A stretch of DNA of 64,000 bases from Kushneria phosphatilytica. GTDB lineage: Bacteria; Pseudomonadota; Gammaproteobacteria; Pseudomonadales; Halomonadaceae. Location of the stretch: the NCBI RefSeq assembly GCF_008247605.1, contig NZ_CP043420.1:3410001-3474000 (forward strand), written 5' to 3'. A program made the translations under genes and the position numbers. Positions 745 to 20,095 of the stretch are shown piece after piece; positions within the stretch are counted from its first letter, which is position 1, and each line of letters opens with the position of its first letter. The notes below the pieces were generated by a model. It was not told the origin of the DNA. It did not search any database and saw only the letters and a list, made by a program, of their open reading frames with translations.

Positions 745-2517
745 TCAATCGACATTGATTCGCGCCATCACTTCACCGGCACTCAGGGTACTGCCCTCCC
801 CTGCCACAATACTCAGGGTGCCCGTGCACTCCGCCATCACCTGGGTTTCCATCTTCATCGCCTCCATGATGGCAATGACATCGCCGGCCGCGACACGACT
901 GCCATCCTCGACCTGCCAGGCATAGAGGTTGCCACTGATGGGTGCCGTGACACTGCCTGCCTCGACTTCAGGCTGCGCCTCGGCGGTTGCGTCAGGGGCC
1001 TCGCGTCCAAGCCCCTGCAGCAGGGTCGCTGGCAGCCCGATATGATGGCGCCGACCATCGATATCGATCACGGTACGCAGCATGGCGGGATCATCAGCCA
1101 CTCGCTGCCGCTCGCCCCACTCCAGCGGTGTGTCGAATTCGGTTTCGATCCAGCGGGTATGAACGCCAAATCCGGGAGCGTCGGGATCATGCGTCTGCCC
1201 CGTGAAATCTCCATGCGTCATGACCGCTCGATGAAACGGCAGCACCGACGCCACGCCCTCGATATGAAATTCCGCCAACGCACGCCTGGCCCGAGCGATC
1301 GCCTGCTCCCGGTTGGCGCCGGTAACGATCAGCTTGGCCATCAGTGAGTCGAAGTGGCCCGAGACGGCATCACCGCTCTCGATGCCGGTATCCAGCCGAA
1401 CTCCCGGCCCGGCAGGAGCACCAAAGCGCTCGATACGCCCCGGCGTGGGCAGAAATCCCTTGGCGGCATCCTCGGCATTGATCCGGAACTCGAAGCCATG
1501 CCCGCGTGGTGTCGGTGTTTCGGACAACGATAACGGCAGGCCTTCGGCGATGCGCAGCTGCTCGATCACCAGGTCAACGCCGGTCGTCTCTTCGGTCACC
1601 GGATGCTCCACCTGGAGTCGCGTATTGACCTCGAGAAACGAGAGCGTGTCGTCACGTCCCAGCAGAAACTCCACCGTACCCGCGCCGACATAGTCGGCCC
1701 GGGCGCAGATATCCCGGGCGGCCTGATGAATACGGCTGCGCTGCTCATCGCTCAGAAAGGGGGCCGGTGCCTCCTCGACGAGCTTCTGGTTGCGCCGCTG
1801 CAGTGAGCAGTCACGGGTGCCGACCACCACCACATTGCCATGCCGATCCCCCAGCACCTGCGCCTCGATATGTCGCGGACGATCAAGAAACTGCTCGACG
1901 AAACACTCGCCTCTGCCAAAGGCCGCTTCGGCTTCGCGCACTGCTGAATGATAAAGTTCGGTCACCTCATCCATGCGCCAGGCCACCTTGAGACCGCGGC
2001 CGCCCCCGCCAAAAGCCGCCTTGATGGCGATCGGCAAGCCATGCTGTTCGGCGAAGGCCACGACCTCTTCGGCACTTTCCACGGGATTCTCGGTGCCGTG
2101 AACCAGTGGCGCGCCTACCGCCAGCGCCAGCCGGCGTGCCTCCACCTTGTCTCCCAGGGTATCGATGGTGTGCGGCTCAGGCCCAATCCAGACCAGCCCC
2201 GCGGCCTGTACGGCGCGGGCGAAATCGGCGCGCTCGGAGAGAAACCCGTAGCCGGGATGAATGGCGTCTGCGCCCGAGCGACGCGCTGCATCCAACAGCT
2301 TGTCGATCGAGAGATAGGTTTCTGCAGCGCGCTCGCCATCGAGCGCAAGGGCTTCATCGGCCAATCGGACATGCATGGCCTCCAGGTCGCCGTCGGCATA
2401 GACAGCCACCGAGTCGATCCCGTAATCGCGACAGGCATGGATCACACGCACCGCAATTTCACCGCGGTTGGCGATCAGCACCTTCTTCAGGGGCCGGTGA
2501 GGGAGGGAGCTGTTCAT
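745..2517 (-). CDS. Biotin carboxylase with C-terminal biotin carrier domain
   Basis: A 590-residue biotin carboxylase (about residues 10-455) joined to a biotinyl carrier domain (about 515-590). Seen: the N-terminal [11 protein letters not shown] strand, the ATP-grasp glycine loop GGGGRG at 170-175, the [14 protein letters not shown] segment, and the biotinylation motif EAMKMET with the lysine near 555. It charges biotin with CO2 from bicarbonate and ATP. No acyl-CoA carboxyltransferase is nearby; instead its ATG overlaps the stop of the AHS1-AHS2 gene by 4 bp (ATGA), implying translational coupling. AHS1/AHS2 domains are homologous to the carboxyltransferase domain of urea carboxylase, so the two proteins may form one enzyme. 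The acceptor substrate is unknown; 5-oxoproline or another amide is an inference. Confidence 0.9.
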
Positions 2518-4118
2518 GGAGAAACCTCGCTTGACTCCGAAAGGGCGTTATCAGCGGATGGCACAGGCTCGGGGATCGGATTGAAACGGATACCGGCGCC
2601 TACGGGGATCTGGCCGGCCAGATCGAGGTGATAGTCGGCCACACAGGCGATAACCGGATAACCACCGGTCAATGGGTGATCGGCAAGAAACAGTACCGGC
2701 TGGCCATTGGCGGGCACCTGCAGGGCGCCGGTGACCGTACCCTCGCTGGGCAGCTCGCCCTGCCGGGCGCGCTCGAGCGTTTCCTCGCCCGAGAGTCGCA
2801 GGCCGACCCGATCGGATTGTGGCGTGACCTGCCATACCTGCTGGCAGAGACGTTCGCGGGCAGCAGCATTAAACCAGTCGCTGCGCGGGCCGGGGACGAT
2901 ATCCAGCGTCACGGTATCTTTCGGCTGCGGGAGCTTGCAGGCCGGTGTCTCATCAAGCGATACCGCGCTCACCGGCAGGTGGGCCGTGTGCAGCGTATCG
3001 CCCTTCGCCAGCGGTGCCGGACCCAGCCGGGCCAGCGTATCGGTGGCCGAGCTGCCCAGTATCGGTGTTACGTCGAATCCACCGCGGAGCGCCAGATAAC
3101 TGCGCGCCCCGGCCGTCGGTGCGCCCAGGGTCAGGGTATCGCCCGGCGCCAGCTCGATCGGCCACCAGGTGCTGACGGCGTAAGCCGGGCCCGCTTCCGG
3201 GCGAATCGTCACGGAAAGTTCGGCGCCCGTGATCCCGATCAGTGCCGGGCGGTGACATCTGATTGTCACGCCGCCCTGGGCGATTTCGATGGCCGTCGCA
3301 TTCGAGGGGTTACCGACCAATCGGTTGGCCGCGCGAAAGGCATCCCGATCCATGGCGCCGGAAGCCGAAACGCCCTGATGGGTCTGTCCGCTGCGCCCGA
3401 GGTCCTGGTACAGGCTCTGTAGCCCGGCGTTGACGACCTCGAGCATCGGCGGCTCGTCCCTCGCCGAGCCCTGTGGCGCAGTCACGGGCCTGGCCTGGCG
3501 CTTCGGACGCTCACTGGTCGGGCTGAACCGTACTCGCATGCCGGGCTGCAACAGGGCAGCCGGCTCGCGATTGATATCCCACATGTCCAGCGGTGTGACG
3601 CCGATCAGTTGCCAGCCACCGGGGCTGTCGGTGGGATAAATACCGCTGAAGGGCCCGGCCAGGCCTACCGCGCCGGCCGGAATACGCGTGCGAGGCGTGC
3701 TTCGACGCGGCACATCGAAGCCGGCACCGCCGGTGAGGTAGGCAAAGCCCGGAGCAAAACCACAGAAGGCAACCTGATACTCGGCTTCACAATGACGGCG
3801 GATCACCTCATCGGTGGTGAGTTCCAGCAGCCGCGCGACCTCATCGAGATCTTCACCGTCGTAACAGACAGGAATTTCCACCAGCTCACCGGACGCCCGC
3901 TGACTACCGGTCAGCGGACACCGGCGCAGCGCTGCAGCCAGCGTTCGAGCGCTGATCCGCCCCGGATCGAAATGCATAAGCAAAGTGCGCGCCGCCGGAA
4001 TGATGGTGGTGACACCCTCGATCGGATGGGCCTTTAGATGTTCGAACAGGCCCAGCGTTTGCGACAGGTCGTCCAGCTCGACCAGCAGCGCACTCAGGCT
4101 AACGGGTAAAATGTTCAT
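2514..4118 (-). CDS. pxpBC: Fused PxpB-PxpC (KipI-KipA, AHS1-AHS2) protein
   Basis: A 534-residue fusion of two families that are usually separate genes. Residues 1 to about 200 are the KipI/PxpB (AHS1) domain with the signature [10 protein letters not shown] at 119-128. Residues about 225-525 are the KipA/PxpC (AHS2) domain, opening with [19 protein letters not shown] and containing GGYPVIACV near the end. The 114-residue spacer around 200-225 is short and Pro/Arg-rich. With PxpA these proteins form the ATP-dependent 5-oxoprolinase known in bacteria. The start is ATG 4118, preceded by AGGAGC; the frame stays open upstream but runs into pxpA. It lies 22 bp after pxpA and is coupled by overlap to the biotin carboxylase gene. 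Confidence 0.92.
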
Positions 4119-17418: not shown

Positions 17419-18273
17419 GTGAGAGAACGAGACGTTGATTGCTGGCTGACCGACATGGACGGCGTGCTGGTGCACGAAAACAAGGCGTTGCCCGGAGCTG
17501 CGGAACTGATCGAACAGTGGCGCACTCAGGGCAAGCCCTTTCTGGTACTGACCAACAATTCCATCTATACCCCGCGCGATCTCAGCGCCCGGCTGGGTCG
17601 CAGCGGTATCGAAGTCCCCGAGGACCGCATCTGGACCTCGGCACTGGCTACCGCCACCTTTCTGCGTGATCAGTCACCCAATGGCTCGGCTTTTGTCATC
17701 GGCGAGGCCGGTATCACCACTGCCATGCACGAGGCCGGCTTCGTGATGACCGATGTGGCACCGGATTTTGTCGTGCTGGGCGAAACCCGCACCTACTCCT
17801 TCGAGGCGATTACCCGGGCGATCCGACTGATCAATGACGGTGCTCGCTTCATCGCCACCAATCCCGATGTCACCAGCCCCAGCGCCGATGGTCCGCTACC
17901 GGCGACGGGTGCCGTGGCAGCGCTGATCACCAGCGCGACCCGGCGCGAGCCCTATGTCATCGGCAAACCCAATCCGATGATGTTCCGCTCCGCCATGAAC
18001 CGGCTGGGCGCACATTCCGAGCGTACCGGCATGATCGGTGATCGCATGGATACGGATGTGGTGGCCGGCATCGAAGCGGGGCTGCATACCGTGCTGGTAC
18101 TGTCCGGCATTGCCGATCGCGCCGAGGTCGAGCGCTACCCCTTCCGGCCCAAGGAAATTCTGGATTCAGTGGCCGATCTGCTCGATGACTCCGGTAGCAG
18201 TAAAGGCAAAAATGACGGTCAGAGCCGAAAGGCTGCTTCAGGTGAGTCGAAGTCCGGCAAAAACGAGAAGTAG
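17419..18273 (+). CDS. HAD-IIA (NagD-like) phosphatase
   Basis: A 284-residue HAD-superfamily phosphatase. Motif I is LTDMDGVLVH (nucleophile Asp with acid/base Asp two positions on), motif II LTNNS, and the C-terminal motifs are GKPNPMMF and GDRMDTDV. The C2-type cap between motifs II and III places it in the NagD group that hydrolyses nucleoside or sugar phosphates. The start is GTG at 17419 with ACAGGAG nine bases upstream. The last 25 residues are a Ser/Lys/Gly-rich tail not typical of NagD. Confidence 0.9.
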   Translation: MRERDVDCWLTDMDGVLVHENKALPGAAELIEQWRTQGKPFLVLTNNSIYTPRDLSARLGRSGIEVPEDRIWTSALATATFLRDQSPNGSAFVIGEAGITTAMHEAGFVMTDVAPDFVVLGETRTYSFEAITRAIRLINDGARFIATNPDVTSPSADGPLPATGAVAALITSATRREPYVIGKPNPMMFRSAMNRLGAHSERTGMIGDRMDTDVVAGIEAGLHTVLVLSGIADRAEVERYPFRPKEILDSVADLLDDSGSSKGKNDGQSRKAASGESKSGKNEK

Positions 18274-18282
18274 TCCATGATG

Positions 18283-18309
18283 GTCGGGTCCGGGATTAAC
18301 GGGCCCGAC
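18283..18309 (+). terminator. Hairpin after the NagD-like gene
   Basis: A 10-bp stem with one G-T pair (GTCGGGTCCG / CGGGCCCGAC) and a 7-base loop begins 10 bp after the stop. There is no T-run, so it may stabilise the mRNA end rather than terminate. Confidence 0.4.
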
Positions 18310-18489
18310 ATCCGCGTCGGCTCGGATGCTTTGGGATAATAGGTGGTATGCCACAGCGCGGTCTGCACTGAAGTCAATTTGAAAAATCTGACGTTGTGAT
18401 GACACTCCCGAGTCACCAAAGTTCACGGATAGGCATGATTCAGCTAGGATAGTGAAACCCTGCACCTGGCGCTCCATCAACGGGCGGCA

Positions 18490-18730
18490 GGAAAAAGAAG
18501 CAGCGGCCGAACGCCCCCGGACCTGCCTGTCTGAAGCGTTGGCCGCTGCAAGGGTTTTGCATCACTCCCGATGCATGGACTTCCTGTCCGACACACTTCC
18601 CTGTGCGCCATAGCCTCGGCTTCCTGCCAGGCATCATGCGGCACTTCCCGTGCCTTGCCGACAATTCCTGTCGAAGAACAGCTCTCCCTGCTGCCTCATG
18701 GCGATCCCTGCCATGAATACCAATGATACG
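18490..18730 (-). ncRNA. csrB: CsrB/RsmZ-type CsrA-sequestering small RNA
   Basis: Reading leftward, this gene-free stretch has eight short stem-loops, each showing GGA in the loop: CATGGC-AGGGATC-GCCATG, CAGC-AGGGAGA-GCTG, CGACA-GGAAT-TGTCG, GGCAC-GGGAA-GTGCC, GGC-AGGAA-GCC, CACA-GGGAAG-TGTG, GGAC-AGGAA-GTCC and GCATC-GGGAGT-GATGC. It ends in a long GC-rich hairpin (arms at 18541-18549 and 18500-18508) followed by TTCTTTTT. Repeated GGA loops on hairpins are the hallmark of CsrB/CsrC/RsmY/RsmZ RNAs, which titrate the translational regulator CsrA/RsmA. The 5' end is estimated; TTGAAC and CATACT/TATCAT elements lie just upstream (18731-18755). No good coding frame is present. The call rests on structure, not on sequence homology. 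Confidence 0.85.
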
Positions 18731-19396
18731 ACAGTATGCCTCGTTCAATAATTAATGAATGTTATTAGTGAGAGTGAAGTTTTTTCATTGCGAACATCAT
18801 TTTTAAATCAAACCTTTCCGCCAAGGCCAACAATCTCATACAAAACCGGCATCAATGTTTAATACTGTTAATAACAGTAACCAATATTACCTGATGATGC
18901 CGCATCCAACCTGCACACACACTCGTTAAGCCATCCGCCAGCCCCTGGCCAGCCGGTACCAGGCGGGATCATCAGGCCAGCAGCAGCGTTTTGACCTATC
19001 TACTCAGCCCGCCATCTGCTATTGCCTACCATGATAAAATCGATGATTGAACAACGGCAAATAACTGCATCTCCCTCAGCAATGCCAATAATGGCTTCTG
19101 ATTTAAAAGCTGACTGTAGAATTTCCTTTTTATTATAACTTCATGACAAATTATTCTATTTTTTCACCACCCTGTTGCGGCACGGGCACAATACCTGCCT
19201 GACCGGAATGGTGGCTCGGTCACTTCATGCGAATATCCTTTTATCTGGCCTGTCTGACCACGTACGACACCGCAACACTATTCGCAAAAATCGAATATCA
19301 ACAGCCTTTTTTTGCGCTGGCATTCGTTCGAATCGGTTGGAATGATAAGCCTCATGATTCCGGCATTAATGGCCGGCTATAGACAGGAGCACCTTC
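18731..19396. other. AT-rich intergenic region upstream of the small RNA and pirin gene
   Basis: About 670 bases without a gene, clearly AT-richer than the rest of the window. It contains the leftward small-RNA promoter region and, at 18863-18879, a 17-bp palindrome (TACTGTTA-A-TAACAGTA) some 135-150 bases upstream of the inferred RNA start. That is about where GacA/UvrY-type activator sites lie for csr/rsm RNAs, although the sequence differs from the GacA box. The rightward half must hold the pirin promoter; I cannot define it. Confidence 0.5.
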
Positions 19397-20095
19397 ATGA
19401 TAACCCTGCGTCCCGCTGAAGAACGTGGTCATGCCGATCATGGCTGGCTCGAGAGCTACCACTCGTTTTCATTCGCCAATTACCATGACCCCGAACACAT
19501 GCAATTCAGTGTGTTGCGTGTCATCAACGAGGATCGCGTCGCGCCGGGAGGCGGGTTCGGCCTGCACGGTCATCGCGACATGGAAATCTTCTCCTATGTC
19601 CTCTCAGGCGAACTCGCCCACCGCGATACCCTGGGCAATGGCTCGGCGATCGGCCCGGGACGCGTACAGCTGATGACTACTGGCACCGGCGTTCAGCACA
19701 GTGAGTACAATCACTCTGAAAGCGAACCGGTACACTTTCTGCAGATCTGGCTGTTTCCACGTGAGCGCGGCCTGACACCACGCTACAGCGAGGCCGATTT
19801 TTCTCCGGCGGACAAACGTGGCCGCCTTTGCCCGATCGTTTCTTTTGATGGTCGTGAGGGCTCGCTGATCCTGCAACAGGATGCCGTGGTCTACGCCACC
19901 CTGCTTGATGGCGACGAAACGGTAACGCACAAACTCGCTACCGGCCGGCAAGGCTATGTCCACGTGATTCGCGGACAGGTCAGCGTCAATGGGCAGCCGC
20001 TCGCGGGTGGCGACGCCCTGATGCTCAGTGACGAGCCGAATATTCGACTGATGGCCGGTGAGGACGCCGAAGTACTGGTGTTCGATCTGCCCTGA
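19397..20095 (+). CDS. Pirin-family protein (YhhW-like quercetinase)
   Basis: A 232-residue bicupin of standard pirin length. The four metal ligands of the YhhW type are at the expected positions: His57 and His59 (HGHRDME) and His101 and Glu103 (HSEYNHS). E. coli YhhW opens quercetin in vitro; physiological roles remain unclear. AGGAGC lies ten bases before the ATG. It is a single-gene unit closed by the terminator at 20116-20144. Confidence 0.93.
   Translation: MITLRPAEERGHADHGWLESYHSFSFANYHDPEHMQFSVLRVINEDRVAPGGGFGLHGHRDMEIFSYVLSGELAHRDTLGNGSAIGPGRVQLMTTGTGVQHSEYNHSESEPVHFLQIWLFPRERGLTPRYSEADFSPADKRGRLCPIVSFDGREGSLILQQDAVVYATLLDGDETVTHKLATGRQGYVHVIRGQVSVNGQPLAGGDALMLSDEPNIRLMAGEDAEVLVFDLP

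Follow-up and report, generated by a model that had tools for sequence, protein, structure and literature searches.

The window, the whole 64-kb stretch of DNA that was analyzed from the salt-loving bacterium Kushneria phosphatilytica, contains a 1.1-kb gap between a gene for a NagD-like HAD hydrolase and a gene for pirin. On the minus strand of this gap, between positions 18715 and 18558, eight successive hairpins with GGA in the loop are seen in the sequence and on folding (Table 1). The stem sequences differ from hairpin to hairpin, while the loop is common to all. The array is closed by a predicted intrinsic terminator, which a simple terminator scan of 18280-19396 did not report, probably because its long stem contains bulges. 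Besides a 102-aa frame with a TTG start that lies over the array, the gap holds no open frame of >103 codons.

Table 1. Features of the nagD-pirin gap and further GGA-hairpin loci (window positions unless a genome and contig are given; G000 is the K. phosphatilytica genome)
Feature	Position	Strand	Basis or remark
NagD-like HAD hydrolase gene	17419..18273	+	convergent neighbor
Predicted CsrB/RsmZ-type small RNA gene (window RNA)	18492..18722	-	sequence, folding, scan, homologue
Predicted intrinsic terminator	18492..18549	-	GC-rich 20-pair stem 18549-18500, then TTCTTTTT 18499-18492; sequence, fold
GGA hairpin 8, loop GGAG	18558..18575	-	fold, scan, comparison with K. sinocarnis
GGA hairpin 7, loop AGGAA	18577..18589	-	stem identical in K. 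sinocarnis
GGA hairpin 6, loop AGGGAA	18591..18608	-	one compensatory change in K. sinocarnis
GGA hairpin 5 (core), loop AGGAA	18617..18629	-	one compensatory change, one outer pair lost in K. sinocarnis
GGA hairpin 4, loop GGGAA	18640..18654	-	one compensatory change in K. sinocarnis
GGA hairpin 3, loop GGAAT	18658..18674	-	one compensatory change in K. sinocarnis
GGA hairpin 2, loop AGGGAGA	18677..18695	-	fold, scan, comparison with K. sinocarnis
GGA hairpin 1 (core), loop AGGGATC	18697..18715	-	fold, scan, comparison with K. sinocarnis
Probable 5' end of window RNA	~18716-18722	-	from first hairpin and -10-like TATCAT
-10-like TATCAT	18723..18728	-	read by eye
Conserved upstream block, includes TGTTCGCnATGAAAAAACTTCA	18762..18842	-	58/81 positions the same in K. 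sinocarnis
Pirin gene	19397..20095	+	divergent neighbor
Candidate second Csr/Rsm-type RNA, L111	G000:C1:3067967-3068032	-	R2 match, E 0.0087
Zinc-ribbon locus, L054 (others among L047-L076)	G000:C1:912580-912822		

The fold of 18490-18730 has an energy of -106.8 kcal/mol (z = -3.97), and none of 200 shuffled sequences is equally stable. Across the base-pairing ensemble, each of the eight loop GGAs is 85 to 100% unpaired; a ninth GGA sits inside a stem. The minimum-energy fold shows eight hairpin loops with GGA for the 229-nt unit and seven when a 251-nt cut with longer flanks is folded, and 500 shuffles of that cut give at most three. A direct scan that counts GGA hairpins in 250-nt windows, moved 25 nt at a time, gives eight at the array and no more than four in every non-overlapping window on both strands of the 64 kb, and 2,000 dinucleotide shuffles of the 251-nt stretch likewise never exceed four. 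The preliminary description, made from the sequence alone, had read eight minus-strand GGA hairpins here, with loops mostly of the AGGA or GGGA type, a GC-rich terminator closing the array, and pirin and NagD-like genes as neighbors. The hairpins are confirmed by sequence, fold, and direct scan, and the loop types and neighbors were correctly named. Folding, which it had proposed as a check with at least six predicted GGA loops, bears out the array in both the unit and the longer cut.

Upstream of the -10-like element no good -35 element is apparent by eye, and a sigma-70 scan that found two promoters against 1.5 expected did not report one for this RNA. We infer that the promoter may be of the activator type. 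The -10-like element and the conserved block further upstream would suit a promoter of the RNA's own.

Conservation in Kushneria sinocarnis and origin of the locus

A DNA search of 58 genomes (that of K. phosphatilytica and those of 57 relatives) finds the window RNA elsewhere only in Kushneria sinocarnis DSM 23229 (genome G007, locus L123), at 80% identity. The gene order short-chain dehydrogenase, NagD-like, RNA, pirin, pfkB is common to the two species, and the K. sinocarnis homologue (L101) retains all eight GGA loops. Between the two sequences, 99.3% of pair cells form pairs, against 30 to 44% when the partners are slid. Changes on both sides of a pair occur in hairpins 3, 4, 5, and 6, and one outer pair of hairpin 5 is lost. 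This covariation is thin, with 41 of 500 shuffles of the pairs reaching the observed value, as only two sequences carry the RNA. The terminator stem is also kept, followed in K. sinocarnis by a poor U-run (GCATCTTG).

Identity with K. sinocarnis is distributed unevenly, at 134/170 in the array, 50/59 in the terminator, 24/39 next to the start, 58/81 in the upstream block (40 to 119 nt upstream), 45/118 further upstream, and 61/93 downstream. The 102-aa frame over the array meets stops and frameshifts or indels in K. sinocarnis, and the protein-coding reading of the array was rejected on this ground. With the structure kept and the frame broken, it is the RNA and not a protein that is conserved. 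In the K. sinocarnis gap, a gene for a Crp-family regulator (L123:5475-6218) lies directly upstream of the RNA and on its strand; the counterpart region in the window has no open frame of >103 codons.

A model built from the window RNA and its K. sinocarnis homologue (R1) was run on 36 genomes, including 10 Kushneria genomes, and gave strong matches only in these two species. Ten weaker matches range in E from 7.9e-7 to 3.15. One, in genome G043, is a GGA array in another family, and the other nine loci hold no array of more than four hairpins. The plasmid collection searched gave no match. In G043 (C77:71053-71498; L004/L008), from another family of the order, an RNA beside tRNA genes reaches 11 GGA hairpins within a single window of 250 nt and scores 52 to 55.3 bits with the Rfam CsrB model (RF00018), below its threshold.

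Four other named Kushneria species also have these genes in the order NagD-like, pirin, pfkB. Between the first two genes, the window has a gap of 1.1 kb and K. sinocarnis one of 1.9 kb, compared with about 150 to 200 nt in K. pakistanensis, K. indalinina, and K. avicenniae. In K. phyllosphaerae the gap is 1.5 kb long, without a GGA array and without similarity to the other two long gaps; the best array in the 8.8-kb locus of that species, with four hairpins, precedes the NagD-like gene. The simplest reading of the enlarged gap with its RNA is a gain by insertion in this lineage, though a loss of the locus in the other Kushneria species is conceivable instead.

Class assignment and predicted role in CsrA titration

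At the gathering threshold, Rfam reports no family over the whole 64-kb window. Over 18400-18950, CsrB is the best match, at 19.1 bits against a threshold of 71 (E = 0.003), so that the Rfam covariance search suggested in the preliminary description falls short of the gathering score. When RF00018 was run over the 58 genomes, four had a match at E ≤ 10 and none was above the cut-off; the K. phosphatilytica locus itself was missed by the strict filters. Among six GGA-hairpin loci compared with Rfam at E up to 0.1, Csr-family matches appeared only for L047, a zinc-ribbon leader of Kushneria (27.3 bits with RF00018, below threshold), and for L004. The K. sinocarnis homologue L101, the candidate second RNA (L111 and L106), and L113 gave none. 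Since the architecture fits and the Rfam score fails, the window RNA belongs to the class by architecture and not to RF00018 by score.

The window RNA shares with CsrB and CsrC of Escherichia coli the long row of GGA-loop hairpins, a predicted intrinsic terminator, and the presence of CsrA in the genome. It differs in size, at about 230 nt with eight GGA loops against the 356 positions of the CsrB model. The review PMC7652899 gives CsrB 22 GGA motifs and a dependence on BarA-UvrY; UvrY was not found in the genus Kushneria. The hairpin unit resembles that of arrays found in the leaders of zinc-ribbon genes of Halomonadaceae, but those arrays end at a ribosome-binding site in a 5' leader, while the window RNA is a terminated RNA. 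In size and number of GGA hairpins, RsmX, RsmY, and RsmZ of Pseudomonas are similar to the window RNA. However, among the matches listed for 18400-18950 at E up to 10, from which one overlapping hit to a family of that clan was left out, none of the three appears, and no GacA box was found ahead of the window RNA.

A GGA in an exposed hairpin loop is the site bound by CsrA/RsmA, and the K. phosphatilytica genome has one csrA gene (Pfam CsrA, 92.7 bits). We consider it very probable that the minus strand from 18722 to 18492 holds a real RNA gene of the CsrB/RsmZ type, ordinary in kind, whose predicted transcript would bind and titrate the global regulator CsrA. The reading of the locus as a CsrA-sequestering RNA, put forward in the preliminary description, gains support from the accessible loops, the compensatory changes, the lack of a conserved frame, the predicted terminator, and the csrA gene. 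That description also took it for a global regulatory RNA of this organism, which is a putative role. The untranslated RNA would be some 225 to 230 nt long. Since each CsrA dimer offers two surfaces for RNA binding, the eight GGA stem-loops could take up about four dimers per RNA. Such sequestration would free the mRNA targets of CsrA, in the mode of CsrB and RsmZ.

The same array might instead be the leader or another untranslated part of a longer mRNA, as the strongest arrays found in related Kushneria immediately precede an open reading frame, and no terminator is seen to separate the two. In the window, however, the array is followed by a strong terminator stem and U-run and then by the convergent NagD-like gene, and the overlapping frame lacks conservation, which makes a leader improbable.

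The post-transcriptional network that Csr/Rsm RNAs adjust is among the largest in Gammaproteobacteria. The window RNA is a concrete candidate for such an RNA in the family of Halomonas anticariensis, and one that the Rfam model misses. A 2020 review (PMC7366521) gives the RNA of the H. anticariensis Gac/Csr system as "Unknown," and passages of PMC12889724 and PMC13414033 name no Csr RNA for Halomonas. In the open-access literature we found nothing linking Kushneria with CsrA, or CsrB with Halomonadaceae or Chromohalobacter, although predictions may exist in subscription journals; within the same literature, CSRNA_FIND appears for another genus only. We found the window RNA in no record. Its added interest lies in the missing GacA and in the zinc-ribbon leaders.

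GacA/UvrY and the drive of the window RNA

GacA/UvrY is the usual activator of Csr/Rsm RNAs. The best match of K. phosphatilytica to the GacA/UvrY family NF007018 scores 110 bits against a cut-off of 280, and NCBIfam identifies the protein concerned as NarL (258.9 bits, cut-off 250). In a survey of the family with at most 26 candidates scored per genome, 83 of 101 genomes had an NF007018 match at E ≤ 1e-50, 57 of them above the cut-off. The 18 genomes without a match comprise all nine Kushneria genomes sampled and nine of other genera. With the GacA of a relative as query and all candidates scored, the best match in the 10 Kushneria genomes, K. sinocarnis included, reaches 75.6 bits, with identities of 25 to 38%. 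GacA/UvrY has apparently been lost in Kushneria, as judged from these searches. CsrA and GGA-array RNAs appear to persist in the genus without this two-component activator, which raises the question of what else drives them.

The GacA box has the consensus TGTAAG-N6-CTTACA. Scored against this consensus, the best site upstream of the window RNA agrees in 8 of 12 letters and is equalled in 155 of 300 shuffles; the best upstream of the K. sinocarnis homologue agrees in 7 of 12 (297 of 300 shuffles). The Kushneria candidates L111, L106, and L113 have no box either. The power of this comparison is low, as among five loci from GacA-bearing relatives (L203, L204, L205, L211, and L212) only L204 shows a box (10 of 12 letters, with 5 of 300 shuffles as good). 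In one such relative, the GGA-hairpin RNA candidate L212 (G027:C10:131162-131209, minus strand) adjoins the GacA gene itself (131640-132269).

An RNA that was once under GacA control could survive as a decaying relic after the loss of GacA. The lack of a GacA orthologue in all 10 Kushneria genomes would be in keeping with this, as would a 1.1-kb gap with no other open frame of >103 codons. Nonetheless, all eight loops and nearly all pairs have been kept through the sequence divergence of the array, and the upstream block is conserved, so that a relic seems slightly less probable still than a leader. That the hairpins have no regulatory meaning, for instance within a protein gene on this strand covered by the TTG frame, is very nearly negligible, given that K. 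sinocarnis has not kept the frame intact, that differing stems share one loop, and that shuffles stay below the observed count. For the CsrA-titrating RNA, the block at 18762-18842 is likely to be the binding place of a regulator other than GacA, and this other regulator would drive the RNA.

Other GGA arrays in Kushneria

A second model, R2, consists of three generic GGA hairpins drawn from 37 source hairpins (6 from the window array and its homologue, 19 from zinc-ribbon leaders, and 12 from G043). It was run on 10 Kushneria genomes, with 150 of 2325 to 3632 first-look candidates scored per genome. The best match among those scored is the window RNA in K. phosphatilytica and K. sinocarnis and a zinc-ribbon leader in the other eight, a ranking that is partly by construction, since most hairpins of the model come from these arrays.

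R2 also yielded a candidate for a second Csr/Rsm-type RNA in K. phosphatilytica, L111, located between a tyrosyl-tRNA-synthetase-type gene (tyrS; Pfam class I W/Y) and a 16S gene. It has four GGA hairpins by scan and three in the minimum-energy fold (z = -3.32), together with a terminator-like stem and a T-run. Among the 10 Kushneria genomes it is common only to K. phosphatilytica and K. sinocarnis; its further matches are to a stretch (query 304-391) that also occurs at other places. We abandoned the notion that free Csr RNAs are absent from all other Kushneria, given the limited share of candidates scored per genome and the candidate L113 in genome G001, which has three GGA hairpins and, by eye, a terminator-like stem.

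The zinc-ribbon gene, from an unnamed family, encodes an 83-aa protein that matches nothing in Pfam or NCBIfam at E 0.001 and has only a weak match in the PDB (E = 0.011), to an entry called transcriptional regulatory protein. Of 151 Halomonadaceae genomes, 35 contain it at E ≤ 1e-6. In all 30 loci read from a longer list of matches, the 260-nt leader carries three to seven GGA hairpins, close to the ribosome-binding site; only 10 of 3,000 leader shuffles have three or more. In the open-access literature we found nothing joining CsrA, a zinc ribbon, and GGA. These leaders are probably strong CsrA targets or CsrA sponges.

The leaders of the eight Kushneria genomes without the window RNA have five to seven GGA hairpins. 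That of K. sinocarnis has three and that of K. phosphatilytica four, of which one is situated upstream of the probable promoter. These counts suggest that the task of titrating CsrA changed hands between leader and free RNA, with free RNAs elsewhere possibly missed. A tentative scenario, which we regard as possible and on balance rather doubtful, is that Kushneria lost GacA/UvrY and rewired CsrA titration; the 19 of 37 R2 hairpins that stem from zinc-ribbon leaders make it slightly less probable. The strongest array found would then reside in the zinc-ribbon 5' leader in eight of ten species, where it may act as a sponge, and in K. phosphatilytica and K. sinocarnis, with three or four leader hairpins, two free RNAs (the window RNA and the one beside tyrS) would have taken over under other regulators.

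By eye, a similar word near TTGTACAAGnCTTG that is partly palindromic (TGTACAAGGCTTGTACA) and is not seen upstream of the window RNA occurs upstream of L111, of L106, and of the zinc-ribbon leaders L047, L054, and L057.
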